64,000 bases of DNA, from positions 1,674,001 to 1,738,000 of the forward strand of contig NZ_JAWDIC010000001.1 of NCBI RefSeq assembly GCF_032464895.1, given 5' to 3'. Made by a program: the position numbers and the translations under genes. This DNA comes from Phycicoccus sp. M110.8 (GTDB lineage: Bacteria > Actinomycetota > Actinomycetes > Actinomycetales > Dermatophilaceae). Shown here piece after piece: positions 1-62,425 of this stretch. The notes under the pieces were generated by a model. It ran no database searches. It was not told the origin of the DNA and was given only the letters and a program-made list of their open reading frames with translations. The stretch's first letter is position 1, and every line of letters starts with the position of its first letter.

Positions 1-350
1 TGGCCGAGGACGGCCGGTGTGCGCACGGTCCTGGACTCGATCGCCCGCCGGGCCCACGGGTGGGCTCCCACCACCCGGCGTGCACCGTGCAGCGCCTCCC
101 GCACGCCGTCGCGCCACCGCGTGGGCGAGGACGGGGGCGGCACGGCCATCTCCGCGACGAGGACGTCGACCATGCCGGCGAGGAGGTCGTCCTTGTCCGC
201 GACGTGCTTGTAGAGCGCCATCGGCACGACGCCGAGGGCGTCCGCGAGCCGCCGCATCGTCACTGCGTCGAGGCCGTCGGTGTCCGCGAGCTCGACCGCA
301 GCGCGGAGGACCCTGGCGCGGGTGAGGGACTCCCGGCCGCCACGCGGCAT
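1..350 (-). CDS. TetR-family transcriptional regulator (3' end outside window)
   Basis: The reverse strand from an ATG at 350 encodes an N-terminal TetR-type helix-turn-helix. Residues about 10-55 include AVTMRRLADALGVVPMALYK, which fits the family's recognition helix, followed by HVADKDDLLAGMV. Only about 116 residues lie in the window, so the ligand-binding domain is missing here. It faces the DUF4386 gene across a 103-base gap holding two perfect 17-base palindromes, so it probably represses itself and that gene. The ligand cannot be told from this part. TetR assignment is firm; target assignment rests on the divergent layout and the operators. Confidence 0.9.
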   Translation of the reverse strand, partial: MPRGGRESLTRARVLRAAVELADTDGLDAVTMRRLADALGVVPMALYKHVADKDDLLAGMVDVLVAEMAVPPPSSPTRWRDGVREALHGARRVVGAHPWARRAIESRTVRTPAVLG

Positions 351-373
351 ACCGACTCCTGGAGATGGGGGGC

Positions 374-432
374 TTGACTTGGTGTACAGCGTACACCTAC
401 CGTCTCAACCATCGAGGTGTACGTCGTACACC
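374..432 (+). promoter_or_regulatory. Promoter with two perfect TetR-type operators
   Basis: Two perfect inverted repeats share the arms GGTGTAC and GTACACC around a 3-base centre, at 381-397 (centre AGC) and 416-432 (centre GTC). Their centres are 35 bases apart. A plausible promoter for the DUF4386 gene is TTGACT at 374-379 and TACCGT at 398-403 with an 18-base spacer. The first operator then fills the spacer and the second lies just downstream of the -10. Binding by the adjacent TetR protein is inferred. Confidence 0.75.
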
Positions 433-453
433 TCTGGCCCTGCTGGAGGAACC

Positions 454-1152: not shown

Positions 1153-1246
1153 GGTCCGACGCCCCGGACCGGTCGGCAAGGGCCATCGGACCCTTCCTTC
1201 GCGGCGTCGGCGGCTGAAGACTGGCGGCACGAGCAAGGAGGACCCG

Positions 1247-1609: not shown

Positions 1610-1672
1610 CCTCGGCCGCGGGTACGGCGCCGGCACGAGGACGCGGCACCGGCGGGATGGCACGCTGACCCC

Positions 1673-3052: not shown

Positions 3053-3071
3053 CCCGGCGTTGGGCCGGAAG

Positions 3072-4304: not shown

Positions 4305-4353
4305 GTCTGGCACTGTTTCACCCATCGACGGTTCGACGGGAGGCGGGATCGGC

Positions 4354-5253
4354 ATGGCGGGTGGTGGGGACGCTCGTGAGCTCTCGCGGCGGCTGGCTGA
4401 CCAGGCAGCCGCGCTCGTGGGGCTGCTCGACACGGACTCCCCCGATCCGGTCGCTGTCGAGGCCGCGCTGGTGGCCGCTCGCTCCACGGTGACCGAGCTC
4501 GAGGCGACCGTTGCCGTCGCGAGGGCTGGTTCCGGTCCGCAACCGCTGCCGCCGGTCGTCGTGTCGGCACCTGTTCTCGGCGTCGACGCGTGCCGGGCCG
4601 GGTGGGTCGGGGCGATCCTCGAGCCCGGCATCCCTCGCCCCCGCGTCGCGGTGGCTGAGACCGTCGACGCGCTGGTGGAGACGGTCCGCCGGTCGCTGGC
4701 GATCCAGGTGGTGGCGATCGACATCCCGATCGGGCTGCCCGACTCGACGACGCGCAGGGCTGACTCGCTGGCACGAAAGGCTTTGCGGCGCAAGGCCTCC
4801 TCGGTGTTCACGACGCTGACCCGCGCCGCCTACGGTGAGCCGACCCGGGGTGCCGCCGACCCGGTGAACCGCGCGCTGACCGGTCAGGGCGTGGGGGCGC
4901 AGGCGTTCGGGTTGCGTGCCAAGATCCTCGAGGTCGACGCGTGGGTGCGCAGTCGCCCGACGGTCCGGGTACTGGAGGCGCACCCCGAGCTCTGCTTCGC
5001 CACCATGTCCGGCGCGCCGATTCCGGCAGGCAAGAAGACGGACGACGGCAGGGCTGCGCGACTCGCCGCCCTCCGCGCCGCAGGCCTGGCATCTCCGTCG
5101 GTCCTCTCCGGGAGCGGGTATGCCGCGGACGACGTCCTCGACGCCTGCGCCGCCGCGTGGACGGCGGCCCGCTGGGTGAACGGCGAGGCCCGCTCGCTGC
5201 CGGATCCCCCGGAGACCTTCTCGGACGGCATACCCGCAGCGATCTGGGTGTGA
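4354..5253 (+). CDS. DUF429 domain protein
   Basis: This 299-residue protein has an N-terminal helical extension of about 75 residues followed by the DUF429 domain, which starts at GVDACRAGWVGAIL, an RNase H-like opening with an acidic residue. VVAIDIPIGLPD near residue 120 and the end EAHPELCFATMSG fit the domain. DUF429 proteins are predicted nuclease-like enzymes of unknown role. The ATG at 4354 follows a GGGAGG about ten bases upstream; an in-frame ATG at 4303 would add 17 residues and overlap the divergent gene. No partner is indicated. Confidence 0.75.
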   Translation: MAGGGDARELSRRLADQAAALVGLLDTDSPDPVAVEAALVAARSTVTELEATVAVARAGSGPQPLPPVVVSAPVLGVDACRAGWVGAILEPGIPRPRVAVAETVDALVETVRRSLAIQVVAIDIPIGLPDSTTRRADSLARKALRRKASSVFTTLTRAAYGEPTRGAADPVNRALTGQGVGAQAFGLRAKILEVDAWVRSRPTVRVLEAHPELCFATMSGAPIPAGKKTDDGRAARLAALRAAGLASPSVLSGSGYAADDVLDACAAAWTAARWVNGEARSLPDPPETFSDGIPAAIWV

Positions 5254-5308
5254 CGAGAAGCGACGTGCCCGACGTGGCGGCGAGCAGCATCGCAGCCGCG
5301 GACCGAGG

Positions 5309-5833: not shown

Positions 5834-7215
5834 CAGAAGCCGTCTCGGGCCATGTTGGCGAACCGGGCGTAGTGGCCCTGGAAGGCCAGCACCATGTCCT
5901 TGGTGGGGCCGTTGCGGTGCTTGGCCACGATGACGTCGACCTCGCCCTCGCGGCCCTCGACCTTGGGCTCGCGGTGCAGCAGGATCACCATGTCGGCGTC
6001 CTGCTCGATCGAGCCCGACTCACGCAGGTCGGACATCGCCGGCCGCTTGTCGGCGCGCTGCTCGGAGCCACGGTTCAGCTGGCTGATCGCGATGACCGGG
6101 ACCTCGAGCTCCTTGGCGAGCAGCTTGAGCGCACGGGAGAACTCCGAGACCTCCTGCTGGCGCGACTCGACCTTCTTGCCCGAGCTCATGAGCTGCAGGT
6201 AGTCGATGACGACGAGCTTGAGGTTGTGCTGCTGCTTGAGCCGGCGGCACTTCGCCCGGATCTCCATGAGCGACATGTTCGGGGAGTCGTCGATGAAGAG
6301 CGGGCTGTCGGAGATCTGCCCCATGATCCGGGCCAGCTTCTTCCAGCCCTGGTCGCCGATGGTGCCCTTGCGCAGGTCCTGGAGCTGGATCTGGGCCTCG
6401 GCCGACAGGCAGCGCATGGTGATCTCGGAGCGGCTCATCTCGAGGGAGAAGATGGCCGTGGCCTGCTTGTGCTTGATCGCCGCGGCGCGGGCGATGTCGA
6501 GGCCCATGGTCGACTTACCGACCGCGGGGCGGGCCGCGAGGACGATCATCTGGCCGGGGTGCAGGCCGTGGGTCAGCTCGTCGAGCTCGATGAACCCCGT
6601 CGGGACGCCCAGCATCTCGTTGGCGTCACGCCCGGCCGCGACCTCGATCTCGTTGAGCGTCTCCTCGAGGACGTCGCCGAGCGCGACGTAGTCCTCGCCC
6701 CCGCGCTTGTCGGCCACGGCATACACCTCGGCCTGGGCGGCATTGACGATGTCCTCGACGTCGCCGTTGCCCTGCTGGTACCCGAGCTGCACGATCCGGG
6801 TGCCCGCCTCGACGAGGCGGCGCAGCACGGCGCGCTCGGCGACGATCTCGGCGTAGTAGCCGGCATTCGCGGCGGTGGGGACGGCCTGGATGAGCTGGTG
6901 GAGGTACGCCTGGCCGCCGATGCGCTGCAGGTCACCGCGCTTGGACAGCTCGTCGGAGACGGTGATGGCGTCGGCCGGCTCGCCCCGGGAGTACAGGTCG
7001 AGGATGGCGTCGTAGATGAGCTCGTGCGCCGGCCGGTAGAAGTCGGTGCCCTTGAGGCCCTCGACACAGTCGGCGATCGCGTCCTTGGACAGCAGCATGC
7101 CGCCGAGGACGGACTGCTCGGCGTGGACGTCCTGCGGGGGGACGCGGTCGTCGCCACCGGGAGCACCGTCGCCGGCGGAGCCGAAGGCGCTGGTGCTCAA
7201 CTCGGCCAGTGACAC
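5833..7215 (-). CDS. dnaB: Replicative DNA helicase DnaB
   Basis: This 460-residue protein has the N-terminal primase-interacting helical domain (about 27-130), a linker and the RecA-like ATPase domain. The Walker A motif is ARPAVGKST near 228-236, the actinobacterial variant. VVIDYLQLM is the Walker B strand, followed by SRQQEVSEFSRALK and AISQLNRGSEQR. Length is normal and no intein interrupts it. It unwinds DNA at the fork and loads DnaG. The start is GTG at 7215, preceded by AGGGGAGT. The gene lies downstream of a region with DnaA-box-like words. In many actinobacteria it is close to rplI; here 25 kb separate them. Confidence 0.97.
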   Translation of the reverse strand: MSLAELSTSAFGSAGDGAPGGDDRVPPQDVHAEQSVLGGMLLSKDAIADCVEGLKGTDFYRPAHELIYDAILDLYSRGEPADAITVSDELSKRGDLQRIGGQAYLHQLIQAVPTAANAGYYAEIVAERAVLRRLVEAGTRIVQLGYQQGNGDVEDIVNAAQAEVYAVADKRGGEDYVALGDVLEETLNEIEVAAGRDANEMLGVPTGFIELDELTHGLHPGQMIVLAARPAVGKSTMGLDIARAAAIKHKQATAIFSLEMSRSEITMRCLSAEAQIQLQDLRKGTIGDQGWKKLARIMGQISDSPLFIDDSPNMSLMEIRAKCRRLKQQHNLKLVVIDYLQLMSSGKKVESRQQEVSEFSRALKLLAKELEVPVIAISQLNRGSEQRADKRPAMSDLRESGSIEQDADMVILLHREPKVEGREGEVDVIVAKHRNGPTKDMVLAFQGHYARFANMARDGF

Positions 7216-7582
7216 CGGCTACTCCCCTGTCTGTGCGGAACGAACGACACCCGTGTGGTTACCAGTGGACCAGTCGGTACCGACAGCGCCTCCAGCGGGT
7301 GACCGGGACACGCTAGGGCCGGGCGCGGAGAGCCGTCGAATCCCCCTTGTGGACGAGCTGGGGAGAAGATGTGGGCAACGCCGGGACGGCTTGTGCACAG
7401 TCGGGGGATAACCCTGTGGATTTCCGCGACGGTCCGTCCCTGAATGCGTCCTGACCTGCGCGTATGCCGTCCACGGGATGTGGAGGGAAGAAACTTCCGG
7501 GCGTGTCCCGGGCTGTGGGCGGTCGGGGGCGGAAAGCGGGTGACGAGGGACAACCGTGGCCCGCCGGACGTACCCTGCCCGC
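7216..7582. promoter_or_regulatory. dnaB upstream region with DnaA-box-like words
   Basis: This 367-base gene-free stretch separates dnaB from DUF2277. Close variants of the actinobacterial DnaA box (TTGTCCACA or its complement TGTGGACAA) occur at 7348-7356 (TGTGGACGA, 8 of 9), 7370-7378 (TGTGGGCAA, 8 of 9) and 7391-7399 (TTGTGCACA, 8 of 9). A weaker one, TGTGGATTT, is at 7415-7423 (6 of 9). The steps are 22, 21 and 24 bases, close to two helical turns. One copy of the 8-base word GTATGCCG lies at 7462. Direct DnaA control of dnaB is inference. Confidence 0.45.
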
Positions 7583-8288: not shown

Positions 8289-8291
8289 AGC

Positions 8292-8934: not shown

Positions 8935-10494
8935 ATGACTGCCACCACCGACGACACCGCTGTGCCTCCGGCCGCCGCGGCCGTCGCCCTCGACCCACCC
9001 CTCGCCGCCCGGGACCTGCCCGCGGAGCCGGCACCCCCCACACCGGCACCTGCCACACCCGCACCCGTCCCGGCGACCGTCGACACCACGCTGGTGCTGC
9101 GGATCCTCGTGCTCTCCACGTTCGTGGTCATCCTCAACGAGACGATCATGGTCAACGCGATCCCGCGGCTCATGCGGGACTTCGCGGTGCCGGCCACCAG
9201 CGCCCAGTGGCTCTCGACGGCGTTCATGCTCACCATGGCCGTCGTCATCCCGGCGACCGGCTGGTTCCTCCAGCGGGTCCGGACGCGCACGGCATACGCC
9301 CTCGCCATGGGGCTGTTCGTCACCGGCACCGCGCTGGCCGCCGCGGCCCCGACGTTCGGGGTCCTGCTGGCCGCCCGTGTCGTCCAGGCCAGCGGCACCG
9401 CGGTGATGATGCCCCTGCTGATGACTACGATGATGACGCTCGTCGCGCCGCAGGACCGCGGCCGGGTGATGGGCAACGTCACCCTCGTGATGTCGGTCGC
9501 CCCGGCCCTCGGGCCTGCCGTCTCGGGCGTCCTGCTGCAGCTCGGGTCGTGGCGGCTGATCTTCGCGGTGGTGCTCCCGATCGCCGGCGTGACCGCACTG
9601 CTCGGGCTCCGCGCCCTCGTCGACATCGGCGAGCCCAGCGCCACCCGGATCGACCTGCCCAGCGTGGTCCTTTCGGCCGTCGGCTTCGGCGCGCTCGTCT
9701 ACGGGCTCAGCGGGCTCGGCGAGGGCGGCCGGGCGAGCCACGCGGTGCCGCCGCTGCTCGTGACGGTCGTCGGGGTGCTCGCGCTGGCAGCGTTCGCGCT
9801 GCGCCAGGTGCGGCAGCAGCGTGGCGCCGGCCCGCTGCTCGACCTGCGCACGCTCACCTTCGGGCCGTTCACGATCGCGCTCGCGCTCATGTGCTCGGCG
9901 TTCATGGCGATGATGGGCGCGATGATCCTGCTCCCGCTGTACCTGCAGGACGTCCTCGGGCTCAGCACCCTGTCGACCGGGCTGCTGCTCATGCCCGGCG
10001 GCCTCGCGATGGGGGTGCTCGGCCCGGTCGTCGGCCGCGCGTACGACCGGCTCGGCGCACCCCGGCTCGTCATCCCCGGGGCGGTCGTCATGGCCGGGAC
10101 CCTGGCCCTGTTCACGCAGGTGACGCCGCAGACCTCGCCGTGGCTGGTGCTCGCCGCGCACGTCGTGCTCATGGTGTCGCTGGCACTGATCTTCACGCCC
10201 GTCTTCACCTCCGGCCTGTCCGTCCTGCCGCCGCACCTGTACGCCCACGGCAGCGCCGTCCTGGGGTCCCTGCAGCAGGTTGCGGCCGCGGCCGGCACCG
10301 CCGTCGTCGTGAGCGTCATGGCCGGGCGGGCCGCCACGGCCGCAGAGGGAGGCGCCGCACCGCTGGCCGCCCTCAGCGACGGCATCCGCTGGGGCTTCGG
10401 GGTCGGTGCCGTGCTTGCCGTCGCCGCGGTCGGTATCGCGTTCGCGGTCCGCACCCCGGCCACCACCGGCGAGGGCGGGCCCGCCGGCCACTGA
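8935..10494 (+). CDS. DHA2-family MFS drug:proton antiporter
   Basis: This 519-residue membrane protein has an Ala/Pro-rich cytoplasmic leader of about 45 residues and then about 14 transmembrane helices, the count of the DHA2 (EmrB/QacA) family. The first helix carries the NETIMVNAIPRLMRD form of the family's DxTIVNVALP motif, and helices four and five carry RVVQASGTAVMMP and GPAVSGVLL. Such proteins expel drugs or lipids with proton uptake. GAAGGA lies eight bases before the ATG at 8935; a GTG ten codons upstream is an alternative. No local regulator gene is adjacent, so the substrate is unknown. Confidence 0.9.
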   Translation: MTATTDDTAVPPAAAAVALDPPLAARDLPAEPAPPTPAPATPAPVPATVDTTLVLRILVLSTFVVILNETIMVNAIPRLMRDFAVPATSAQWLSTAFMLTMAVVIPATGWFLQRVRTRTAYALAMGLFVTGTALAAAAPTFGVLLAARVVQASGTAVMMPLLMTTMMTLVAPQDRGRVMGNVTLVMSVAPALGPAVSGVLLQLGSWRLIFAVVLPIAGVTALLGLRALVDIGEPSATRIDLPSVVLSAVGFGALVYGLSGLGEGGRASHAVPPLLVTVVGVLALAAFALRQVRQQRGAGPLLDLRTLTFGPFTIALALMCSAFMAMMGAMILLPLYLQDVLGLSTLSTGLLLMPGGLAMGVLGPVVGRAYDRLGAPRLVIPGAVVMAGTLALFTQVTPQTSPWLVLAAHVVLMVSLALIFTPVFTSGLSVLPPHLYAHGSAVLGSLQQVAAAAGTAVVVSVMAGRAATAAEGGAAPLAALSDGIRWGFGVGAVLAVAAVGIAFAVRTPATTGEGGPAGH

Positions 10495-10500
10495 GCGCCC

Positions 10501-10761: not shown

Positions 10762-11463
10762 ATGCTGGCTCCCGTGACCCACCCGCTCGTCGAGGCCGTC
10801 CGCGACGCGCTCGCCCCGGCCGGCGACCCGCAGCGGGCCCGGGCCCAGCAGGCGTACATGAAGTCGGCCATGCCGTTCCGCGGCCTCACCTCGCCCGAGC
10901 TCAAGGCGCTGCTGCGCCCCCTGCTCGCCGACCCGGCGCTGCGCATCGGGGACCGCGCGACGTGGGAGGCGGCGGTGCGCGAGCTCTGGGACGAGGCCAC
11001 CCACCGCGAGGACCGGTATGCCGCGACGGCCCTCGCCGGCCACCGCGCCTACCGCGCGTGGCAGGACGCCGAGACGCTCCCCCTCTACCGGCACCTCGTC
11101 GTCACCGGCGCCTGGTGGGACCACGTCGACGAGGTCGCCACCCACCGGGTCGGCCCGATCCTGTTGTCGCACAAGGGGACCGTCACGCCGGTCGTCCGCT
11201 CCTGGGCCACCGACGAGGACCTGTGGCTGCGCCGCACGAGCGTGATCTGCCAGCTCGGCGCCCGCGACCGCACCGACGTGGAGCTGCTGCGGTACGCCGT
11301 CGAGTCCAACCTCGACGACCCCAGCTTCTGGCTGCGCAAGGCGATCGGCTGGGCGCTGCGCCAGTACGCGCGCACCGACCCCGACTGGGTCCGGGACCGG
11401 GTGGCCGAGTGGGACGGCCGGCTCAGCGGGCTCAGTCGGCGCGAGGCGCTGCGACACCTCTGA
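10762..11463 (+). CDS. AlkD-like DNA alkylation repair protein
   Basis: This 233-residue all-helical protein fits the AlkD/HEAT-repeat DNA glycosylase family, which removes alkylated purines by trapping the extruded nucleotide. KSAMPFRGLTSPELKALLRP is the family's early segment, WWDHVDEVATHRVG the central Asp-bearing helix, and DEDLWLRRTSVICQL and DPSFWLRKAIGWALRQYA are typical later repeats. Length is normal. The ATG at 10762 is used; a GTG four codons on is also possible. Its 3' end overlaps the convergent MFS gene by 32 bases. Confidence 0.88.
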   Translation: MLAPVTHPLVEAVRDALAPAGDPQRARAQQAYMKSAMPFRGLTSPELKALLRPLLADPALRIGDRATWEAAVRELWDEATHREDRYAATALAGHRAYRAWQDAETLPLYRHLVVTGAWWDHVDEVATHRVGPILLSHKGTVTPVVRSWATDEDLWLRRTSVICQLGARDRTDVELLRYAVESNLDDPSFWLRKAIGWALRQYARTDPDWVRDRVAEWDGRLSGLSRREALRHL

Positions 11464-16126: not shown

Positions 16127-16208
16127 GCCCACGGCATACGCTGGCCGACGTCCCCGCCACCGTCCGGGCGCGCTGGGGCCGCTCCTGACGTCCGCGGGGT
16201 CCGGGCGA

Positions 16209-19092: not shown

Positions 19093-20075
<983 letters not shown>

Positions 20076-33159: not shown

Positions 33160-33311
33160 CGTGGTGCTCTCCTTCGAGTTTCAGGATGAGCCCTGGTTCC
33201 CCAGGGATGGTGGTGGTGCTGTCTTGCTGGAGGTATGCCCCGTGCTCACCGCGAGCGGTGCGCCGCCGGCATACCGGGTGATCCGGACCGAGGGGTCAGG
33301 CGCCGGGTCGG

Positions 33312-38059: not shown

Positions 38060-38088
38060 CTGACCTTCCCGATCGGCATACGTGCGTG

Positions 38089-40051: not shown

Positions 40052-40152
40052 TCTCGCGTATGCCGGGTGCCCACCCCTCCCCGACTTCGGGCCACTGGAC
40101 CCCCGACCAGACGGCCCGGACCGGGGTCGGGTGGCCCGAAGTGCGAAAGGGG

Positions 40153-51657: not shown

Positions 51658-52401
51658 CTACTTCCCCCCAGGTCCTTCACTGTCGATCGCGTCGAGGAGC
51701 ACGAGGTCCGCCTCCGTCACCAGACGGGTCGACAGCGCGTGCTCGACCAGCCTGGACTTCCTGTTGCTCGCGAGCTTCCCCGGGCCCCCGTGCAGTCCAC
51801 GAGTACCAGCATCCGCGAGCTTTTGACACACATTGTCCAGTTTTCGGTTGAACTTCGTGACCTTCCACCCCAGCCGCGCCGCCGCGTCCGCGGACGACGG
51901 GATCTGGCCGGGCCCGGCATACGACCGGCGCAGGAGCGGCTCCGCCAGGGCCACGATCAGCAGCTTCTGGTCGGGGGTGAAGGTCACCCGCCCCACCGTG
52001 GTCTCGCCGGTCGCGGCGTCCTCCTCGAGCGCCTCGGTGCCCGTCGAGGTGAAGGCCGGGCTCCCCACGACGACGTCGAAGTCGTAGGTCGTCGGGCCGG
52101 CCGTGAACCACACGGTGAACCGCTCGAGCGCCAGCGGGATCCGCGCGCCGGGGTTGAGCCACGCCTGGAACAGGCCCTTCTTGTCGGCGACCGTCGCGGT
52201 CAGGGTCGTGCCGACGTTGCTCAGCCACCACAGGCCGCCGTCGTGCACGACCTGCAGGAAGCTGCGGTGCAGGAACGGGTTGTCGTCGATCTCGACGTCG
52301 CCGGTGCGCCCGATGGTCAGCGGCGTGCCGGGGACCGCGACGAACTCCTCGCCGCAGAACTCGACCGTCACCGTGCCCGCGTCCACCGCTGCCGCGCTCA
52401 C
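51658..52401 (-). CDS. FHA-like protein with C-terminal helical region
   Basis: This 247-residue protein has an FHA-like domain at about 10-115, with GTPLTIGRTGDVEIDDNPFL and HRSFLQVVHDGGLWWLSNVG as the phosphothreonine-site loops. A C-terminal helical half (about 150-247) contains SADAAARLGWKVTKFNRKL and may be a winged helix, which is uncertain. The GTG at 52401 overlaps the kinase stop as GTGA. It lies two bases upstream of the giant gene and may read phosphorylation made by the neighbouring kinase. It ends with a TAG stop. Confidence 0.8.
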   Translation of the reverse strand: MSAAAVDAGTVTVEFCGEEFVAVPGTPLTIGRTGDVEIDDNPFLHRSFLQVVHDGGLWWLSNVGTTLTATVADKKGLFQAWLNPGARIPLALERFTVWFTAGPTTYDFDVVVGSPAFTSTGTEALEEDAATGETTVGRVTFTPDQKLLIVALAEPLLRRSYAGPGQIPSSADAAARLGWKVTKFNRKLDNVCQKLADAGTRGLHGGPGKLASNRKSRLVEHALSTRLVTEADLVLLDAIDSEGPGGK

Positions 52402-53999
52402 TTCGCCACCGCGCAGACCGGTGTCGAGTAGTCCGAGGCCGCGCCGTTGCGGTTGGTCCTGACCTGGGCACACACCTGGGTTCCCGCCTTCGCTGAGATG
52501 GTCGTCGTCGCCGTGTCGAGGGGTCCGCGGTCCTGGGCCTGGGCCAGGGCGGAGGTGTCCGCGCCGGAGCGGACGAAGAACCGGTCCTGCTTCTGGGGCG
52601 CGAGGTAGGTCCAGGTCAGCCGCACGCCCTTGGCCACCCCGGTCGCCTCCACGCGGGGGGCGTCGGGCACGTCGAGGGCCACGTCCCCGGTCTGGCTCGC
52701 CGCCGTGGTCGGCGAGTCGGTCGCCGTGTCGTCGCCGCCGCGACCCCCGAAGAGGAACGAGAAGAGGGCGACGAGGGCGACCGCGCCCACGGCGAGCGCC
52801 GCGAACGTGACCGCCGGGTTCCGCGCGGGCGCCGGGGCCGGCGCCTCGGGCGTGGCCACGGTGCTCGTGCCGAGCCGGTCGCGGCTCACCGTGCCCTCCG
52901 GGACGTCGCCGGGCACCGGCCTGCGCTCGTATGCCGCGTGGGTGCCGGGAGCGGTCGAGACCCCCTGCGCGCCGGTGACTGCGTGCGTGCCACCGACCGA
53001 GCGGGGCGGGCGCGGCGGGACGACGGGCGCCTGGCCCTGCACCGCCTGGGGGGCGCGGACCCGGGTGCGGTCGCCGTCGCCGCCCTCGGTGCCACCGGTC
53101 TGGTCGGCGAGGGTGGTCTGGCCCTGCTCGTCGAGGACGACGATGGCCGATCGGGCGAACCGCTGCTCCTGCTCGATCTCCTGCAGGGCGCGCGCGAAGG
53201 CCAGCGCCGACTGCGGCCGGGCGTCGGGGTCCTTGGCCATCGCCTGGGCCAGCAACCGCTCGAGCGAGACCGGCACGTCGGCACGCCCGGTCGCGGGCAC
53301 GGGGCTGGTACGGATGCGAGGCATGAGCCCGTAGGCCGAGTTGTCACCGCCCGGGATCTCGAACGGCGAGCGCCCGACGAGCAGCTGCCAGAGGGTGGCG
53401 GCGAGCGAGTACACGTCGGAGCGGACGTCGCCGCTCGACTGGCCGAACAGGACCTCCGGCGGGGCCCACGGCACGCTGACGCCCACGTCGTCGTCATCGT
53501 CCTCGGCGGCGCCGTGGCCGAGCTGGCCGGCGATGCCGAAGTCGGTCAGGCCCGGCGCGCCGTACTGGCTGACCAGCACGTTCGCCGGCTTGATGTCGCG
53601 GTGGGTGATGCCCGCCCGGTGCGCCGTCTCCACCGCGCTGGCCAGCTGGATGCCGGTGCGCAGCACCTCCTCGACCGACAGCCGCTCGCTGCGCGAGCGC
53701 ATCGCGAGGTTCGGCGGCGGGTAGTACTTCATGACGAGGTAGGGACGGCCGTCGGTCGAGGTGCCGGAGCGGAACACCTGGACGATGTAGGGGTGGTCGG
53801 CGAGCTGGGCCATGGTGTCGGCCTCGTCGCGGAACTGGCGGCGGATCGCGTCGGTGATGCCCTCGCCCTTGAGCACCTTCACCGCGACCCGCATCCGGGG
53901 AGCCTGCTGCTCGTAGAGGTACACGTCGGCATACCCACCCGAGCCGATGCGCTCGCGGTAGACCAGGCCCTCGAGCTCGGGCGGTGCGGCAGTGCTCAC
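52398..53999 (-). CDS. Transmembrane Ser/Thr protein kinase with FnIII-like outer domain
   Basis: This 533-residue kinase has the Gly loop GSGGYADV at 19-26, Lys41 in VAVKVL, HRDIKPAN at 133-140 and DFG at 153-155. A Pro-rich juxtamembrane linker (about 285-394) leads to one helix at 395-418. The outer region (440-533) reads as an FnIII-like domain (PRVEATGVAKGVRLTWTYL) with two Cys. No PASTA repeats occur, unlike PknB. The GTG at 53999 overlaps the upstream FHA gene as GTGA. It probably phosphorylates operon partners. Confidence 0.93.
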   Translation of the reverse strand: MSTAAPPELEGLVYRERIGSGGYADVYLYEQQAPRMRVAVKVLKGEGITDAIRRQFRDEADTMAQLADHPYIVQVFRSGTSTDGRPYLVMKYYPPPNLAMRSRSERLSVEEVLRTGIQLASAVETAHRAGITHRDIKPANVLVSQYGAPGLTDFGIAGQLGHGAAEDDDDDVGVSVPWAPPEVLFGQSSGDVRSDVYSLAATLWQLLVGRSPFEIPGGDNSAYGLMPRIRTSPVPATGRADVPVSLERLLAQAMAKDPDARPQSALAFARALQEIEQEQRFARSAIVVLDEQGQTTLADQTGGTEGGDGDRTRVRAPQAVQGQAPVVPPRPPRSVGGTHAVTGAQGVSTAPGTHAAYERRPVPGDVPEGTVSRDRLGTSTVATPEAPAPAPARNPAVTFAALAVGAVALVALFSFLFGGRGGDDTATDSPTTAASQTGDVALDVPDAPRVEATGVAKGVRLTWTYLAPQKQDRFFVRSGADTSALAQAQDRGPLDTATTTISAKAGTQVCAQVRTNRNGAASDYSTPVCAVAK

Positions 54000-55720
54000 G
54001 GGCGCACCTCGTAGGTGAAGGTGACCTCGTCGGCCATGCCGACCACGGTGCCGGGTTCGATGACCTGGCTGTCGCTGGGGCGCAGCCGCACCGGCTGCTG
54101 CCCGGGCAGGGTGACGGTGGTGCCGTTGGTCGACCCGAGGTCGCGGACCAGGACGTGCCACCCCTCGAGGACGACCTCGACGTGGTTGCGCGAGATGTCG
54201 TTCTCGGCGCTGACGACCCGCACGAGGTGCGGCCGGTCGGCCGCGGGCAGGTCGGCGTTGAGCTTCGGGGCCCGGCCGAGGAGCACCCCGCGGTCGAGGG
54301 TGACGACGTCGCCGCCGGAGAGGCGGATCGTCCCCAGCGGGGGTCGCGGGGTCTGGAACGGCTGCTGCGGCGGGATCTCGCGGTCGCACACGCGGCAGGT
54401 GACGGCGTGCGGCGGGCTGGGGTGGCCGGCCGGGCACAGCACGGCCAGCACGATGGGGCCGCGCGGGATCGACCCGGTGGCGGTCACGGGCAGGCTGGCC
54501 CGGTCGACCGTGGCCTCCTCGGGCTCGACCGGTGCGGGAGCGGGGGCCGGCTGCTGCGGCGGCGCGTACGGCAGGGGTGCCGACGGCACCGGCGGCGCCG
54601 CTGGGGTGGGCGGCGCCGGACTGGCCGGCGCCGAGGTCGGCGCGGCCGGACGGTCGGGCTCGACCGGGATGACCGGCCTGGTGGGCGGCGCCGACGCAGG
54701 GGGGACCGGCCCCGGCACCGGGTCGGACGCCGACGGCAGGGGCGGCAGTGCGCCCCATCCGGCGGGCGCGGAAGGGTGCTGCCCGGCGGGACGCTCTCGC
54801 TCCGGCGTGGACGACTGAGGCGCCGGTGGCTGGGGCGCTGCTGGCTGGGTTGAAGGCGGGGGCGTCGCTGCTTGGCTTGAAGGCGCGGCGTCGGTCGCGG
54901 GCGGCTGCTCCGTCGACCGGTCGGCCGGCGGCACGTTGCTGCCCCCGCGGCGCCACGGGACCGAGTCGATCAGGCCGCTGCCCCGGCCCTCCTCCCGGGC
55001 AGGTGCGGGCGAAGTCGACGGGCGCCCCTGCTGGGTGTGCTGCGGAGGCGGCAAGGTGTGGGCCGAGGAGTCGTCGAGGCCGCCGGCCTCCTCCATCGGC
55101 GCCCGGCCGATGGGCGGCTCGGAGAGCGAGCCGGTGTCGTGGTTGCCCAGGAAGGGCGGCGTGCCGGTCGAGCCGGGTGCGCCGAACAGGTAGTCGTAGC
55201 CCGGCACGTCCTGCACCTCGGGCTGGTCGCGGCCGGGCGCCTGCTGCTCGCGCGGCGGGCCCCCACGGCGCAGCCGGGCCGGCAGCTGCCAGCCCTTGAC
55301 CGCACCCGGGCGGTCGAGCTCGCCGTCCGGCAGCCCCTCGGGCTCCGGTTCGGGGAGCGGCTCGCCGGAGTGCAGCACCACCTCCGTGGCGCCGGCCGGG
55401 GCGTCCTCGTCGGTCCACGGTCCCCGACCCGCGCGGACCTCCACGTCGCCATCGGGGCCGGACACCACGGCATACGCGGTGCCACGGGCGACCACGCGCA
55501 CGGGGTCGCCGTCGAGGACGGCCACGAAGTCCGGCGCCCGGCGCAGGCCCTCGGCCGACAGGGCGTCGAGGACGTCGTCGAGGTCGCCGGTGTGGACCGC
55601 CTCGGCGACCCGCTTGACCACGTCGTCGGACTCCACACCGCGCACGAGGGCGGACACGGCGCCAGCCGAGATGGCGGACCATCCCGGCTGGTCGGGGGCG
55701 GAGAACCGGACCTCGCTCAT
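53996..55720 (-). CDS. FHA domain protein with Pro-rich linker and zinc-ribbon-like motif
   Basis: This 574-residue protein has a conserved N-terminal region of about 120 residues that I do not recognise, a long Pro/Ala-rich linker (about 120-420), a CPAGH...CRVC cysteine pattern near 435-455 that may bind zinc, and a canonical FHA domain at about 465-574. In that domain RNHVEVVLEGWHVLVRDLGS and NGTTVTLP hold the key Arg, His and Asn. It should bind phosphothreonine proteins and bridge kinase and targets. ATG 55720; it overlaps both the phosphatase and the kinase gene. Confidence 0.9.
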   Translation of the reverse strand: MSEVRFSAPDQPGWSAISAGAVSALVRGVESDDVVKRVAEAVHTGDLDDVLDALSAEGLRRAPDFVAVLDGDPVRVVARGTAYAVVSGPDGDVEVRAGRGPWTDEDAPAGATEVVLHSGEPLPEPEPEGLPDGELDRPGAVKGWQLPARLRRGGPPREQQAPGRDQPEVQDVPGYDYLFGAPGSTGTPPFLGNHDTGSLSEPPIGRAPMEEAGGLDDSSAHTLPPPQHTQQGRPSTSPAPAREEGRGSGLIDSVPWRRGGSNVPPADRSTEQPPATDAAPSSQAATPPPSTQPAAPQPPAPQSSTPERERPAGQHPSAPAGWGALPPLPSASDPVPGPVPPASAPPTRPVIPVEPDRPAAPTSAPASPAPPTPAAPPVPSAPLPYAPPQQPAPAPAPVEPEEATVDRASLPVTATGSIPRGPIVLAVLCPAGHPSPPHAVTCRVCDREIPPQQPFQTPRPPLGTIRLSGGDVVTLDRGVLLGRAPKLNADLPAADRPHLVRVVSAENDISRNHVEVVLEGWHVLVRDLGSTNGTTVTLPGQQPVRLRPSDSQVIEPGTVVGMADEVTFTYEVRP

Positions 55721-57005: not shown

Positions 57006-57343
57006 CGGGACCTTTCGGGGGGCCAGGCGGCAGCCGTCGCCGCACCGGCAAAGGCTAGGTGGCGTGGGGAGCCCTGCCGATGGGGAGGACTCCCCATCGC
57101 CGGCACCCCGCCGCGTCACCCCGCCGGCACAGACGTGGGCAAGGTTCCCACACCGGACGCGACACCGAAACCTCGCCCATTTCGGACCTGCCCGGACGCC
57201 CTCGCACCCGCGCGCTCACCCTCACCGCACCCGCTGCCCGGAGGTCTGCGCACAGACGAGCGTGCGAGTGCGCAGGGAGCGGATCCGTGCGCAGTGGGAC
57301 GGAGGTGTGTGCGCAGACGCGCGTGCCCGGGGCGTATGCCGGG
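57006..57343 (-). promoter_or_regulatory. Promoter and palindrome of the signalling operon; repeat-bearing gap
   Basis: This 338-base gap holds the operon promoter. On the reverse strand TAGCCT (57052-57057) is a plausible -10 and TCGGCA (57075-57080) a -35 with a 17-base spacer. A perfect 10-base inverted repeat, CGATGGGGAG at 57078-57087 and CTCCCCATCG at 57090-57099, overlaps the -35 edge and may be an operator. Farther up, GTGCGCAG occurs at 57268, 57287 and 57309 and inverted at 57246; one pairing could end the glycerophosphodiesterase transcript. One GTATGCCG copy is at 57334. Confidence 0.55.
57246..57316. repeat. Four GTGCGCAG words at about two-turn spacing
   Basis: CTGCGCAC at 57246-57253 is followed by its complement GTGCGCAG at 57268-57275, 57287-57294 and 57309-57316. 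Steps between starts are 22, 19 and 22 bases. They can form alternative hairpins or serve as binding sites between the glycerophosphodiesterase and the signalling operon. Confidence 0.6.
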
Positions 57344-58105
57344 TCAGTCGGCGAGGTCGGCGAGCTGGGGCAGGGTGCGGGGCACGTCGTCGACGACCAC
57401 CGCGTCGACCCCCGCCTCGAGCAGGGCGCGCGCCTCGGGCAGCTTCGGGCACCACGCCACCACCTCGAGGCCGGCCTCGTGCGCCAGCCCGACGGCATAC
57501 TCCGGCGACCGGAAGGCGGGCGCGCGGTCCACCGGGTTGGGGCCGAACGAGGACCAGTGCGCGGCGACTGCCTCCACACCGAGGTGGGCCGCGGCGGGCA
57601 GCGCCTTGCGCAACGGGAAGCCGACCCAGGTGAGGAACGAGCGCGGCACGTCCGGCGCGAGCTCGCCGAGGATGAGCAGGGCCGAGGGGTCGAAGGACGA
57701 CACGAGCAGCGGCCGGTGCAGTGCCGCAGCGGTGGCGACGGGCGCGAGCGCGGCGGCGGTGGTGCGGCCCCGGCGGCGGACGGCGTCCTCCATCGAGGTC
57801 TTGAGGTCGAGGTTGACGCCGACGTCCGCGGGCAGGGCGTCGAGCACCTCCTCGAGGGTCACCGCCCCGAGCTCGCGAGCGCGGGTGAGGGACAGGTCGG
57901 CGACGAACTCGGCGTCACCCACGGTCGGGTAGTGGCCGACGACGAGCTGGTCGTCGGCCGTGCGCCGCACGTCGAACTCGACCCAGCGCAGCCCGCAGCG
58001 CGCCGCCGCGACGATCGACCCGACCGAGTTCTCGACCAGGCCGTCGACCTCGTCGCGCCCCAGGCCGCGGTGGCCCAGGACCGTCGGCCTCCCGAAGACG
58101 CTCAC
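57344..58105 (-). CDS. Glycerophosphodiester phosphodiesterase
   Basis: This 253-residue TIM-barrel enzyme has the GDPD motifs LGHRGLGRDEV, ENSVGSIVAAARCG with the metal Glu, and EFDVRRTADDQLVVGH. It hydrolyses glycerophosphodiesters to glycerol phosphate and an alcohol. No signal peptide is seen, so it works on imported or internal lipids. The GTG at 58105 overlaps the CCA-adding enzyme stop as GTGA. Confidence 0.93.
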   Translation of the reverse strand: MSVFGRPTVLGHRGLGRDEVDGLVENSVGSIVAAARCGLRWVEFDVRRTADDQLVVGHYPTVGDAEFVADLSLTRARELGAVTLEEVLDALPADVGVNLDLKTSMEDAVRRRGRTTAAALAPVATAAALHRPLLVSSFDPSALLILGELAPDVPRSFLTWVGFPLRKALPAAAHLGVEAVAAHWSSFGPNPVDRAPAFRSPEYAVGLAHEAGLEVVAWCPKLPEARALLEAGVDAVVVDDVPRTLPQLADLAD

Positions 58106-59691
58106 CGTCCGGTCACTCCCCCCGCCGGGTCGGTCTGCCCGTCGGGCTCGCCGCCGGTCCCGGGCTCGCCGCCGCTCTCGCGCGGGGTTCCGGTCTCCGC
58201 GCCGGACTCCGGCTGCTGCGCCCACCAGGACCGCAGCTCGCCCTCGACCGCCTCACGTCCGATGACCCCGCGGTCCAGCCGGACCTCGAGCAGGTGCTTG
58301 TACGCGCGCCCCAGGACCGGGCCGGGGCGGATGCCCAGCACCTGCCCGATCTCGTTGCCGTCGAGCTCGGGGCGCACGGCCGCGAGCTCCTCCTGCTCCT
58401 GCAGCCGCTCGATCCGCCGCTCGAGCTCGTCGTACGTCGTCGACAGCCGCTGGGCCTTGCGGGCGTTGCGGGTCGTGGAGTCCGAGCGGGTCAGCCGGTG
58501 CAGCCGGGGCAGCAGCGGGCCCGCGTCGGTGACATAGCGGCGCACGGCCGAGTCGGTCCACTGCCCCTCGCCGTACCCGTGGAACCGCAGGTGCAGCTCG
58601 GTCAGCCGCGCGACGGCCTTGACCGTGTCCTTGTCGAACCGCAGCGCCTTGAGCCGCTTGGCCGCCAGCTTGGCGCCGACCACCTCGTGGTGGTGGAACG
58701 AGACGCCCCCACCGGACTCGAACCGCCGGGTCGCGGGCTTGCCGATGTCGTGGAGGAGCGCGGCGAGCCGCAGCACGAGGTCGGGGCCGGGCACCGACTC
58801 GGGCGGGCCGTCGGCCGGGCCCTCGAGCGCGATCGCCTGGTCCAGCACGGTCAGCGAGTGCTCGTAGACGTCCTTGTGCCGGTGGTGCTCGTCGATCTCG
58901 AGCCGCAGCGCGGGCACCTCGGGCAGCACGTGGTCGGCGAGCCCGGTGTCGACGAGCAGCCGCAGGCCGCCACGCGGGCGGGGGGCGAGGAGCAGCTTGG
59001 ACAGCTCGTCGCGCACCCGCTCGGCCGAGACGATCCCGATCGAGCCGGCCATCTCGGTCATGGCCGCCCGCACCTCCGGCGCCACGTCGAACCCCAGCTG
59101 GGCCACGAACCGGCACGCGCGCATCATCCTCAGCGGGTCGTCGCCGAACGACACCTCCGGCGCCCCGGGGGTGCGCAGGCGACGGGCGGCGAGGTCGGCC
59201 AGCCCGGCATACGGGTCGACGAACTCCATGTCCGGCAGCCGCAGCGCCATGGCGTTGACGGTGAAGTCGCGCCGCACCAGGTCGTCGGAGAGGTTGTCGC
59301 CGAAGGCGACGACGGGCTTGCGGGTGAGGCCGTCGTAGGCGTCGGCACGGTAGGTCGTGACCTCGACGGTGGTGTCCCCGCGCCGGGCGCCGATGGTGCC
59401 GAACTCGCGCCCCACGTCCCAGTGCGCGTCGGCCCACGGCCGCAGGACCGCCAGGGTCTGGTCCGGTGAGGCACTCGTCGTGAAGTCGAGGTCGGGGCTG
59501 GTCCGCCCGAGGAAGGCGTCCCGGACGGGGCCGCCGACGAGGGCCAGCTCGTGCCCCGCCGCGGCGAACCGCTCGCCCAGCTCGGTCAGGAGCGGGACGA
59601 CGGGCGCGAGGTGAGCGGTGGCGCGGCGCAGCAGCTCCAGCTGCGGCGCGGACCCGGCCGCGTGCGGCTCGCGGGGATCGGCGGAGGACAC
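58102..59691 (-). CDS. CCA-adding tRNA nucleotidyltransferase with HD domain
   Basis: This 529-residue class II enzyme has LALVGGPVRDAFLGR at 49-63, DLDF at 67-70 with the two catalytic Asp, and RRDFTVNAMA. An HD domain with LLHDIGKPA follows near 315. It repairs or adds the CCA end of tRNA. An acidic, Gly/Pro-rich tail ends the protein. Actinobacterial genes of this kind are often labelled pcnA. The GTG at 59691 is preferred; a TTG three codons upstream is an alternative. It is divergent from the Nudix gene with only 35 bases between the starts. Confidence 0.94.
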   Translation of the reverse strand: MSSADPREPHAAGSAPQLELLRRATAHLAPVVPLLTELGERFAAAGHELALVGGPVRDAFLGRTSPDLDFTTSASPDQTLAVLRPWADAHWDVGREFGTIGARRGDTTVEVTTYRADAYDGLTRKPVVAFGDNLSDDLVRRDFTVNAMALRLPDMEFVDPYAGLADLAARRLRTPGAPEVSFGDDPLRMMRACRFVAQLGFDVAPEVRAAMTEMAGSIGIVSAERVRDELSKLLLAPRPRGGLRLLVDTGLADHVLPEVPALRLEIDEHHRHKDVYEHSLTVLDQAIALEGPADGPPESVPGPDLVLRLAALLHDIGKPATRRFESGGGVSFHHHEVVGAKLAAKRLKALRFDKDTVKAVARLTELHLRFHGYGEGQWTDSAVRRYVTDAGPLLPRLHRLTRSDSTTRNARKAQRLSTTYDELERRIERLQEQEELAAVRPELDGNEIGQVLGIRPGPVLGRAYKHLLEVRLDRGVIGREAVEGELRSWWAQQPESGAETGTPRESGGEPGTGGEPDGQTDPAGGVTGR

Positions 59692-59726
59692 GGGGACCAA
59701 GCCTAGGCGCTCGTTAGAGTGACGGG

Positions 59727-60212
59727 GTGACCTCCCCCGCGCCCGAACCGGACCGCATGGCCCGCAGGCTGCCCGCGGTGGAGGAGCGCTCGGCCGGGGG
59801 GATCGTCGTCGACGTCGTGGACGGCGTCGCCCGGATCGCGGTCATCGCCCGCCGCAACCGGGCCGGTCGGATCGAGTGGTGCCTGCCCAAGGGCCACCGC
59901 GAGGACGGCGAGACGCTCATCGAGGCCGCGGCCCGCGAGGTGGCCGAGGAGACCGGCATCGAGGGGCGCGTGCTCACCGAGCTCGGCACCATCGACTACT
60001 GGTTCGCGACCGGCGAGCGCCGGGTCCACAAGTTCGTCCACCACTACCTGCTCGAGGCCACCGGCGGCGACCTCACCATCGAGAACGACCCCGACCACGA
60101 GGCCGTGGACGTCGCCTGGCTGCCGCTGCACGAGGCGCACGAGCACCTCACCTTCCCCAACGAGCGACGCATCGCCCGGCAGGCCTGGGCCCGCCTCTCC
60201 GGGGACGGCTGA
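59727..60212 (+). CDS. Nudix hydrolase
   Basis: This 161-residue protein has a perfect Nudix box from Gly56 to Ile78 (GHREDGE, then REVAEETGI). It also has the strand SAGGIVVDVVDGVARIAVIA and a Tyr/Trp-rich HKFVHHYLLEA segment. Such enzymes hydrolyse nucleoside diphosphate derivatives. Its place between the CCA-adding enzyme and murJ is conserved in actinobacteria. The GTG start lacks a clear upstream ribosome-binding site. Its stop overlaps the DUF6049 ATG as TGATG. Confidence 0.94.
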   Translation: MTSPAPEPDRMARRLPAVEERSAGGIVVDVVDGVARIAVIARRNRAGRIEWCLPKGHREDGETLIEAAAREVAEETGIEGRVLTELGTIDYWFATGERRVHKFVHHYLLEATGGDLTIENDPDHEAVDVAWLPLHEAHEHLTFPNERRIARQAWARLSGDG

Positions 60213-62425
60213 TGGTCGGCGGTCCCCGGCGCCGCGCGCTCGGCGCGGCGGCCCTGGTGCTGTCCGCCGTGCCCCTCCTGCTCGGCGCCGGTGCGCCGGC
60301 CGGGTATGCCGCGGGTGCGCCGGCTGAGCTGGCGACCTCCCCCGCCGCGGCCGCCGACCCCGCGGTGGCGGCCGATCCCGCGGTGGCGGCCGATCCCGCG
60401 CTGGCGGCCGACCCCGCGGTGGCGGCCGACCCGGGCGTCCCCGCGAGCGCCCCCGCCGCCGGCGCCGGGGGCACCGAGCTGACCCTGACGTCGGTGAGCC
60501 CCGCGGTCGTGCAGTCCGGCCAGGACCTCGTGGTCACCGGCTCGCTGCGCAACGGGACCGGCACGCCCCTCGCCAAGCCGACCGTGCGGGTGGTCCTGGG
60601 CGACACGCCGGTCGAGCGGTCCCGCGAGCGCGTGCAGGAGTGGGCGGGCGCCACCGGTCCGGCCCGCGGCGCCGTGGTGGGCCAGACGCGCCTGGGCGGG
60701 ACTCTGGCGCCGGGAGCCAGCGGGGGCTTCCGGGTGGTGGTGACGAAGCTCGCGTCCCGCGCCACCGGGTCCACCTACGGAGCCCTGCCGATCAGCGTCG
60801 AGAGCGGCGGGACGAGCGTGCGGACCTTCGCCGGGTACCAGCGGGTCAAGCAGTACCAGCCGCTGTCGGTCGCGTGGGCCGTCCCGCTGACCCTGGACCC
60901 CGACCCCGACCTGTTCTCCGCCGAGGGCCAGCCCCGCGAGGACGCCTGGCAGCGGGCGCTCGGTGACGGCTCGCGGCTCAGCCGCGTCCTCGACGCCACC
61001 CAGGACACCACCGTCACCTGGGCCGTCGACCCGACGCTGACGCCGAGCCTGCTCCAGGGCCAGCACGACGTCGCCACGGGTGCGTCCGCGGCCGGCGAGC
61101 GGGCGCTGCGATCGGCCACCGAGGGCCGCATCACCAGCGGCGCCCAGCGGCACACCCCCTGGGTCCTGCCCGACACCGACGCCGACCTCGCCGCCGTGGT
61201 GGGCACCCCCGCCGGCGACTCGCTGATGCGCGGCTACGTCGGGCGCTCGACGCCGGTGGCCCAGGCCCTCGAGGGTCGCTCGGACGTGGCGTGGCCGGCG
61301 GACGGCGCGTACACGACCAGCCGCGAGACCGCCCTGCGCCGGGTCTTCCGGGTCCCGGCCCTCGCCGGCCAGGTCATCTCCTCCTCCGTGCTCGCGGCCA
61401 CCACCACGACCAGCACCCCCGTGGCCGCGCAGCGCTCGCTGACCGGCCTGCCGCTGCTCGCCTACGACGACGAGCTCAGCAGCCTCCTCGCCCGCACCCG
61501 GTCGCCGCAGGAGGGGGTGCTCAGCGCCCAGCAGTTCGTCGCCGACACCGCCGCGCTGCTCAACGAGCTGCCCGGGACCGAGGGCCGGACGCTGTTCGTC
61601 GTGGCACCGCGCTCCTGGGGCCCCGACCCGGCCGCGGCCCGCGCCTTCTTCACGACCGCCGCCGCCATCCCCTGGCTCGTCCCCACCACGACCGACGCCG
61701 AGCTCGCACGGGCCCGGCGGGCCACGCCCTCCCCGGCCGCCCCGGTGACGCGGCCCACCACTCCGCTCCAGGGTGGCCGACCCGTGCTGACCGCGGGGCG
61801 GGTGGCCGAGCTGGAGAGCACCGTCCGCACGGTGCAGGGGGTGGCGACCATCCGCGACGACGGCGACCAGTTCGGCCGCACGTGGACCCGGGCGGCCGAG
61901 CAGCTCGCCTCGACCCGCTGGCGGGCAGCCCCGACCGCCTGGAACACCCTCGAGGGCCGGGTCGACCAGGCCGCCGCGCAGACCACGTCGGCCGTCAAGG
62001 TGCTCGCCGGCACCATCAACTTCCTCGCCGAGTCCGGGCGCCTGCAGATCACCGTCACCAACGACCTCACCGTTCCGGTGGAGAACGTGCGGCTGGCGGT
62101 CGAGGCCTCCAACCCGCGCCTGCGCATCGACAGCCAGCCGCCGATCCTGCGCATCGGGCCCCGCAGCCGGGCGACCGTCAGCGTCGGCGTCACCGCCCTG
62201 GCCGCAGGACCGGTCCCCCTGCGCACCACCCTGACGACGCCCGACGGCACCGTCATCGGGCAGGGGGCCGACGTGCAGGTCCGCGTCACCCCCACGGGAG
62301 ACTGGGTCTACTGGGCCCTCGGCGGGCTCGCAGGGCTGATCCTGCTCGCCGGGCTCGTGCGCACCTTCCGCCGCCGTCCCCGCCGACGCCTGACCGCCCC
62401 CACCACCCTCGAGGTTCCCCGATGA
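60212..62425 (+). CDS. DUF6049-family secreted membrane-anchored protein
   Basis: This 737-residue protein has a signal peptide (1-33, GAAALVLSAVPLLLGAGAPA), an Ala/Asp/Pro/Val repeat region (about 48-77), an extracytoplasmic body with an Ig-like TLTSVSPAVVQSGQDLVVTG opening, and one C-terminal helix (YWALGGLAGLILLAGLV) with a basic cytoplasmic tail. DUF6049 genes lie between the Nudix gene and murJ in most actinobacteria and may act with the flippase; their function is not established. It overlaps both neighbours (TGATG and ATGA). Confidence 0.9.
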   Translation: MVGGPRRRALGAAALVLSAVPLLLGAGAPAGYAAGAPAELATSPAAAADPAVAADPAVAADPALAADPAVAADPGVPASAPAAGAGGTELTLTSVSPAVVQSGQDLVVTGSLRNGTGTPLAKPTVRVVLGDTPVERSRERVQEWAGATGPARGAVVGQTRLGGTLAPGASGGFRVVVTKLASRATGSTYGALPISVESGGTSVRTFAGYQRVKQYQPLSVAWAVPLTLDPDPDLFSAEGQPREDAWQRALGDGSRLSRVLDATQDTTVTWAVDPTLTPSLLQGQHDVATGASAAGERALRSATEGRITSGAQRHTPWVLPDTDADLAAVVGTPAGDSLMRGYVGRSTPVAQALEGRSDVAWPADGAYTTSRETALRRVFRVPALAGQVISSSVLAATTTTSTPVAAQRSLTGLPLLAYDDELSSLLARTRSPQEGVLSAQQFVADTAALLNELPGTEGRTLFVVAPRSWGPDPAAARAFFTTAAAIPWLVPTTTDAELARARRATPSPAAPVTRPTTPLQGGRPVLTAGRVAELESTVRTVQGVATIRDDGDQFGRTWTRAAEQLASTRWRAAPTAWNTLEGRVDQAAAQTTSAVKVLAGTINFLAESGRLQITVTNDLTVPVENVRLAVEASNPRLRIDSQPPILRIGPRSRATVSVGVTALAAGPVPLRTTLTTPDGTVIGQGADVQVRVTPTGDWVYWALGGLAGLILLAGLVRTFRRRPRRRLTAPTTLEVPR
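60353..60439. repeat. 18-base in-frame tandem repeat in the DUF6049 gene
   Basis: Four full copies of GCCGACCCCGCGGTGGCG (one or two changes each) and one partial copy run from 60353. They encode repeats of Ala-Asp-Pro-Ala-Val-Ala behind the signal peptide. Such arrays are prone to length change. Confidence 0.85.

Follow-up and report, generated by a model that had tools for sequence, protein, structure and literature searches.

A short asymmetric word with dialects in Dermatophilaceae genomes as a candidate DNA-uptake word

The 8-base word CGGCATAC, read as GTATGCCG where it lies on the reverse strand, is strongly over-represented in a stretch of 64,000 nucleotides from the genome of the actinobacterium Phycicoccus sp. 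M110.8 (hereafter the window, meaning the whole stretch at its full length) and in the genomes of many other members of the family Dermatophilaceae. The copies are conserved between congeners and have no local polarity, related words ("dialects") take the place of CGGCATAC in several relatives, the state of the word has changed repeatedly on a gene tree, and the window's genome encodes a set of transformation genes of the Micrococcus type. We consider it fairly probable, judging from sequence comparison, that CGGCATAC serves for self-recognition in DNA uptake, as part of a natural-transformation system of this high-G+C family of Actinobacteria. To our knowledge, no DNA-uptake word has previously been described in Actinobacteria, and we know of such words only from the Neisseriaceae and Pasteurellaceae.

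An exact-match search of the window found 42 copies between positions 345 and 60311, 23 on the forward and 19 on the reverse strand, in agreement with the 19 and 23 by orientation that an earlier note on this DNA had counted by eye. That note had expected about two copies from base composition, and a third-order Markov model of the window (G+C = 0.736) indeed predicts 1.9, while 100 dinucleotide-preserving shuffles gave a mean of 0.93 copies and a maximum of 4. Among the 8-mers with at least eight copies in the window, CGGCATAC and the overlapping ACGGCATA are the most deviant. The 7-base core GGCATAC occurs 43 times, and all but one of these extend to the full eight bases, as had been noted. 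The word differs from its own reverse complement and is thus non-palindromic; beyond the eight bases there is a weak preference, chiefly for C at −2, a purine at −1, and C at +1.

The word is found both within and between genes, as the earlier note had held. With genes taken from a rough, codon-position G+C call that covers 83% of the window, 31 sites are genic and 11 lie outside called genes (including those at 7462, 16132, 33267, 38074, 40058, and 57334), although some of the 11 may fall in missed genes. The genic copies are read as Tyr-Ala (n = 19), Ala-Tyr (n = 9), Gly-Ile (n = 2), and Val-Cys (n = 1), the four readings given before. The further claim that the word brings in rare codons stands for TAT and falls for GCA: within called genes, 19 of 27 TAT, 9 of 110 GCA, 2 of 5 ATA, and 1 of 7 GTA codons fall inside it, so the TAT codons are mostly owed to the word and the GCA codons are not. 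Together with the copies outside called genes and the genomic excess described below, this supports the view that maintenance acts on the word as DNA and not on a peptide.

The excess holds beyond the window, as a genome-wide count of the kind suggested in the earlier note demonstrates. The window's genome (G000, 4.12 Mb), in which the window spans bases 1674001–1738000 of contig 1, contains 2476 copies of CGGCATAC (1242 forward and 1234 reverse, about 0.6 per kb), compared to 135 copies (61 forward, 74 reverse) of a control word, CGGCATAC read backwards, which amounts to an approximately 18-fold excess. All 11 genomes of the window's genus contain the word, with 625 to 3986 copies. Within the Dermatophilaceae, 106 of 186 genomes are word-bearing (median ratio to control 11.9), with 400 or more copies and a ratio to the control of at least 2.4; this cut-off, like the dialect lists below, was set after the tables had been seen. 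In some genera (g4 and g18) the control word, too, is elevated, and there the ratio can drop to 2.5. Among 60 genomes under the cut-off are G140 (394 copies, 74% complete) and G181 (341 copies, 68% complete), which probably bear the word despite falling below it. All later family-wide searches cover 184 of the 186 genomes, leaving out G132 and G140. The distribution is patchy within the family, with g4, g33, and g42 each combining word-bearing genomes with one word-poor species (G018, G094, and G124, respectively). A sample of 297 genomes of the order comprised 24 Dermatophilaceae and 273 genomes of 19 other families; no abundance of the word was found in the latter, none of which contains more than 177 copies, and ratios as high as about 4 are confined to genomes with few copies of both the word and the control. 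Among loci from other organisms with a length of 15 kb or more, the top dispersed 8-mer scored 8.1, compared to 27 on the same scale for the word in the window.

Comparison of the word with matched 8-mers between close species, a conservation test akin to the one against flanking bases proposed in the earlier note, found the word better conserved at every class of flank identity. Ten species of the genus were aligned over up to 40 kb, with 8-mers of equal A/T number as controls; the counts reuse sites across all ordered species pairs and are thus not independent. At a flank identity of 0.6–0.7, the aligned position carried an intact word in 80 of 167 cases (controls 0.14); the same was true in 237 of 421 (0.56) at 0.7–0.8 (controls 6415 of 31356, 0.20), in 225 of 346 (0.65) at 0.8–0.9 (controls 11834 of 38197, 0.31), and in 78 of 119 (0.66) at 0.9–1.0, where the gain is smallest (controls 7233 of 15464, 0.47). 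Between congeners, the word is thus conserved 1.4 to 3.4 times better than matched 8-mers. At the level of local stretches, 20 of which were counted in the genus, no strand bias was detected; the largest imbalance was 2 copies on one strand and 6 on the other. The earlier argument that the word is not a polar signal like Chi or the FtsK-orienting polar sequences (KOPS) is borne out at this scale. Compared to random placement, spacing was slightly even in two samples, but not clearly significantly so (gap variation, p = 0.27 and 0.08; smallest gap, p = 0.06 and 0.03).

The density of the word is 55 per 100 kb in 458 kb of sequence from the genus (window included), compared to 1.4 per 100 kb in 140 kb from seven relatives without CGGCATAC. 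The single-mismatch neighbours of the word are about as rare in the genus as in these relatives. Exceptions are CGGCGTAC (10.1 vs. 17.9 per 100 kb) and CGGCATGC (2.6 vs. 5.7), both lower in the word-bearing genus, in a comparison in which one of the seven relatives, G094, is itself rich in CGGCGTAC.

Several word-poor genomes over-represent another word that is one or two letters away from CGGCATAC. Dialects were sought in the comEC loci of 80 genomes, read over 13–20 kb each (one over only 5 kb), and in 35–40 kb from ten genomes of the window's genus, and genome-wide counts in the 184 genomes confirmed three that differ by a single letter. CGGCATCC occurs 2099–4480 times in seven genomes, namely in g15 (4480, 3619, 2195, and 2099), g9 (3816 and 3838), and G178 (3949), vs. 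241–1336 times in the other 177; a locus titled Humibacillus (L076) contains 16 copies where 1.5 are expected. CGGCGTAC occurs 785–4185 times in 11 genomes, belonging to g35 (2111, 4185, and 3903) and g3 (2366, 2618, and 785) and including two of the four g5 genomes (1125 and 2529), G025 (2216), G024 (1359), and G094 (1463), vs. 33–1011 times in the other 173. Finally, CCGCATAC is found 511–1204 times in the four genomes of g13 (1204, 511, 878, and 988) and at most 476 times in any other. Mixed states also exist: two g15 genomes carry both CGGCATAC and CGGCATCC, and in the window's genus the genomes with the lowest CGGCATAC counts have the highest CGGCGTAC counts (G007, 625 and 865; G010, 836 and 1011, respectively).

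Other candidate dialects come from samples of 15–100 kb. These small samples suggest that CGNCATAC is a dialect in g14, g4, and G167, SGGCATAC in g42 genomes such as G127 and G128, and CGCCGTAC in G094, and that CGGCATTC occurs alongside CGGCATAC in G057. When ten word-poor relatives were read to 100 kb, a related word was present in four (G094, G099, G024, and, weakly, G184); CGGCATCC was weakly raised in G160 (33 vs. 11.6), and nothing clear was found in 100 kb each of G048 and G109. Similarly, 40 kb each of G018 and G124, the word-poor members of word-bearing genera, contained no related word. G093 (L208–L211, L055) has 87 copies of CCGCATCG/CGATGCGG per 100 kb vs. 19 expected, possibly a more distant dialect. 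The word CCCCCTTCG/CGAAGGGGG, over-represented in G074 (L212–L215, L058; 58 per 100 kb) and G103 (L220–L223, L173; 47 per 100 kb) with about 3 expected, seems to be a feature of another kind, perhaps a component of transcription terminators or a further word of genome-wide extent. In g46, which was counted as wordless, CGGCGTAC reaches about 5 times its own control in several genomes (e.g. 517 vs. 92 in G153), and two genomes contain 1210 and 1336 copies of CGGCATCC; because of these raised counts, g46 may be a weak or decaying case.

The state of the word has changed repeatedly. On a tree of LeuS alone, with 77 of 90 sampled genomes (79 were matched, two of which were too short), five word classes, one of them mixed, plus the state "none" require 19 changes, and the presence or absence of any word requires 8.

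A short asymmetric word that occurs about 0.6 times per kb, is locally non-polar, conserved, present in dialects and often absent, and is found together with transformation genes of the Micrococcus type is best read as an uptake word. From this pattern we infer that the cells are transformable and that the word functions in DNA uptake. Free DNA would be bound at the word by a protein on the cell surface, which could be a Tad (Flp) minor pilin or another protein associated with this pilus, and the pilus would carry word-bearing DNA to ComEA and ComEC, after which a single strand would be imported and recombined. Since word-bearing DNA would enter preferentially, word copies born by mutation would be spread and kept by recombination, so that the genome would fill with copies in both orientations, within and between genes. 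As the specificity of the receptor drifted, the word would drift with it and give rise to dialects, and where the system was lost the word would decay. With slightly less assurance, we favour a more specific form of this proposal, namely an uptake-sequence system of the Tad (Flp) pilus in monoderm Actinobacteria that would be independent of the DNA uptake sequence (DUS) and uptake signal sequence (USS) of Proteobacteria. Its sequence-specific receptor would perhaps be a TadE/F/G minor pilin or the FtsK/SpoIIIE-like translocase next to tad-1, and its at least four genome-wide spellings would act as barriers resembling mating types. By analogy with FtsK, which reads KOPS, one purely speculative idea is that the FtsK-like protein reads the word.

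The gene content of the window's genome is consistent with such a system. It encodes a ComEA with SLBB and helix-hairpin-helix domains, as well as ComEC, and a tad cluster in the order tadA-tadB-tadC-tadE-(weak tadE/F)-tadG, in which the weak tadE/F scores below the Pfam cut-off, the last gene is TadE/G-like, and no flp was found among open reading frames of at least 70 amino acids. A gene combining a forkhead-associated (FHA) domain with FtsK/SpoIIIE adjoins this tad-1-like cluster in divergent orientation. Transformation of Micrococcus luteus requires comEA and comEC. The layout of tad-1 and Mlut_07490 in this organism matches that of the tad cluster and FtsK/SpoIIIE gene in the window's genome, where comEA and comEC are also present; according to two papers (PMC4322843, PMC8467076), tad-1 and tad-2, the latter including flp, are both required for transformation, and in a strain mutated in the FtsK/SpoIIIE gene beside tad-1 the value was reduced 1000-fold or more. 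Term searches of both papers did not turn up an uptake sequence. In the window's genome, the second TadE/F-like protein of the tad-1-like cluster (L249:3071-3559, minus strand) has a close cysteine pair, CDGDPC, which possibly forms a small disulfide loop, and a further TadB/TadC pair lies at G000:C1:647949-649330 (in L248), about 45 kb from the tad-1-like cluster.

Across the family, T2SSF proteins (TadB/TadC) are found in 181 of 184 genomes, and at least three T2SSF matches are more frequent in word-bearing than in wordless genomes. This holds for genomes at least 95% complete (103 of 103 vs. 39 of 47; Fisher p = 6e-5), at least 90% complete (110 of 111 vs. 43 of 52), and for all 184 (119 of 125 vs. 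47 of 59; p = 0.002), in a comparison in which G014, with 785 copies of CGGCGTAC, was counted as word-bearing and G029, with 752, was not (both are labelled CGGCGTAC on the LeuS tree). In addition, the word-bearing G000, G164, G017, and G115 have a TadB/TadC pair separated by about 1.03–1.06 kb, together with one or more matches of another type, whereas the wordless G048, G107, G032, and G011 have T2SSF matches of the other type only.

Several observations weigh against an uptake word. The cut of more than two T2SSF matches was set after the counts had been seen, and when kinship is taken into account, two of eight independent pairs agree with the association, about 0.1 disagree, and about 6 are equal (sign test, p = 0.5); as just two pairs are informative, both as expected, the association is not significant in itself. 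The ten genomes in the spacing comparison were chosen by their T2SSF counts, and because the four wordless ones were picked for having one or two matches, their missing second pair lends no independent support. Moreover, G093 and G103 have a TadB/TadC pair with tad-1-like spacing without CGGCATAC, so the tad-1-like cluster is at best necessary; this typing is by spacing, the genes having been read in the window's genome only. ComEC, matched in 179 of 184 genomes, is just as common in wordless ones. The pilins of type IVa match in just 4 of 184 genomes, which led us to reject type IVa pili as the uptake organelle; with this class, to which Neisseria ComP belongs, nearly absent, the receptor would be new. 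Lastly, the 49-kb phage TJE1, a single phage whose host may or may not bear the word, contains two word and two control sites.

Being near-universal, ComEC was also dropped as a correlate of the word. In a rough comparison of gene content at the comEC locus between 23 word-bearing and 7 other loci, no gene of G000 or G094 was present in all word-bearing loci and in no others; the gene calls were crude, the loci of unequal length, and G094, taken as wordless, carries the CGGCGTAC/CGCCGTAC word.

Among known uptake words, the DUS of the Neisseriaceae is non-palindromic, and its receptor ComP is a type IVa minor pilin. Like CGGCATAC, it is short, present in thousands of copies, and spelled differently among relatives, making it the closest precedent for dialects, of which eight are described among related species of the Neisseriaceae (PMC3630211). 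It differs in the word itself, in the phylum, which is monoderm and of high G+C here, and in the use of type IVa pilins instead of Tad/Flp pili. The USS of the Pasteurellaceae is a word of similar length and density that is tied to competence, but word, lineage, and pilus type all differ from those considered here. A literature search, with most subscription papers and preprints outside its reach, did not find CGGCATAC as a motif in the text covered, although the string occurs in a Ralstonia typing paper; for uptake sequences in Actinobacteria or Actinomycetota, nothing on point was among the matches listed.

The earlier note had offered two analogies, an uptake word and the highly iterated palindrome HIP1 of cyanobacteria. 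Were the word HIP1-like, a methyltransferase would modify it or part of it, methylation-dependent repair would create and keep the copies, and dialects would follow the specificity of the methyltransferase. The patchy spread, losses, and variants would fit such a process, and HIP1 and its alternates are likewise GC-rich 8-mers that are patchily distributed and reach very high copy numbers, with alternates tracking different methyltransferases (PMC4390886). These words are palindromic and methyltransferase-linked, whereas CGGCATAC is asymmetric; in addition, HIP1-like repair should use up single-mismatch neighbours, of which no broad depletion is seen relative to the seven relatives without CGGCATAC. 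We consider this explanation unlikely, and of the two analogies the uptake word is the better one because CGGCATAC is non-palindromic, has dialects, and shares its genome with a Micrococcus-type transformation set. Alternatively, the word could be where a chromosome-organising or nucleoid-associated protein binds, with sites that are needed at high density and co-evolve with the protein. This would account for a dense, strand-neutral, and conserved word in and outside called genes, and also for the slightly even spacing in two samples, which is not significant by gap variation. A more than 6-fold range in copy number among congeners and the many state changes on the tree would be odd for such a housekeeping function, and we regard it as less likely still.

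Chi and KOPS are asymmetric 8-base words that are read by DNA translocases and oriented along the chromosome. In length and asymmetry CGGCATAC resembles Escherichia coli Chi, and it might thus be a recombination hot-spot for an end-resection enzyme of the RecBCD or AdnAB type. Unlike these words, it lacks a local strand bias (23 vs. 19 in the window), and RecC, for which 88 of 184 genomes have a match, is missing from the window's genome and nine of the ten others of the genus while being present in wordless genera such as g27. As RecC does not track the word, RecBCD/Chi was discarded as its cause, and a Chi-like role in general appears very improbable. RecC itself is patchy across the family, with one of the eleven genomes of the window's genus encoding it. 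The remaining alternative is a by-product of codon-pair or dipeptide preference, in favour of which 28 of the 31 genic copies encode Tyr-Ala or Ala-Tyr. This explanation, which the earlier note had named, in a form with no excess in intergenic DNA, as one that would undo its claim, is not upheld: 11 of the 42 copies lie outside called genes, the seven relatives have 1.4 rather than 55 copies per 100 kb, and with 19 of 27 TAT codons inside the word, the codon follows the word and not the reverse. We therefore treat it as refuted, with next to no probability left to it.

The 42 sites in the window, all exact matches and numbered 1 to 42 in order of position, are distributed as follows. Within called genes, CGGCATAC lies on the forward strand at 345–352, 6717–6724, 9290–9297, 11749–11756, 11965–11972, 13971–13978, 19500–19507, 19908–19915, 29363–29370, 31213–31220, 34619–34626, 42066–42073, 49558–49565, 51915–51922, 55468–55475, 57493–57500, and 59205–59212, and is read as GTATGCCG (reverse strand) at 696–703, 2953–2960, 11016–11023, 12440–12447, 15733–15740, 19102–19109, 26255–26262, 29894–29901, 30947–30954, 34515–34522, 42622–42629, 47717–47724, 50033–50040, and 60304–60311. 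Outside called genes, forward copies are found at 5226–5233, 16132–16139, 16478–16485, 33267–33274, 38074–38081, and 53927–53934, and reverse copies at 5118–5125, 7462–7469, 40058–40065, 52929–52936, and 57334–57341. Other words also exceed expectation in the window, including the palindromes TGCGCA (104 vs. 33 expected) and ATCGCGAT (12 vs. 0.9), each counted on both strands, as well as CGCGAACGCG (9 vs. 0.5).

If CGGCATAC is indeed an uptake word, sequence-marked sex would have evolved more than once, with an independent Gram-positive case that uses a different pilus, and the family would provide a densely sampled set of dialect shifts and losses for comparison. The word and the tad-1 cluster would then also give a starting point for genetic tools in this large group, whose members live in soil and sludge. 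Should the word have no role in uptake, a conserved asymmetric 8-mer with dialects in more than 100 genomes would point to an unexplained genome-wide force.

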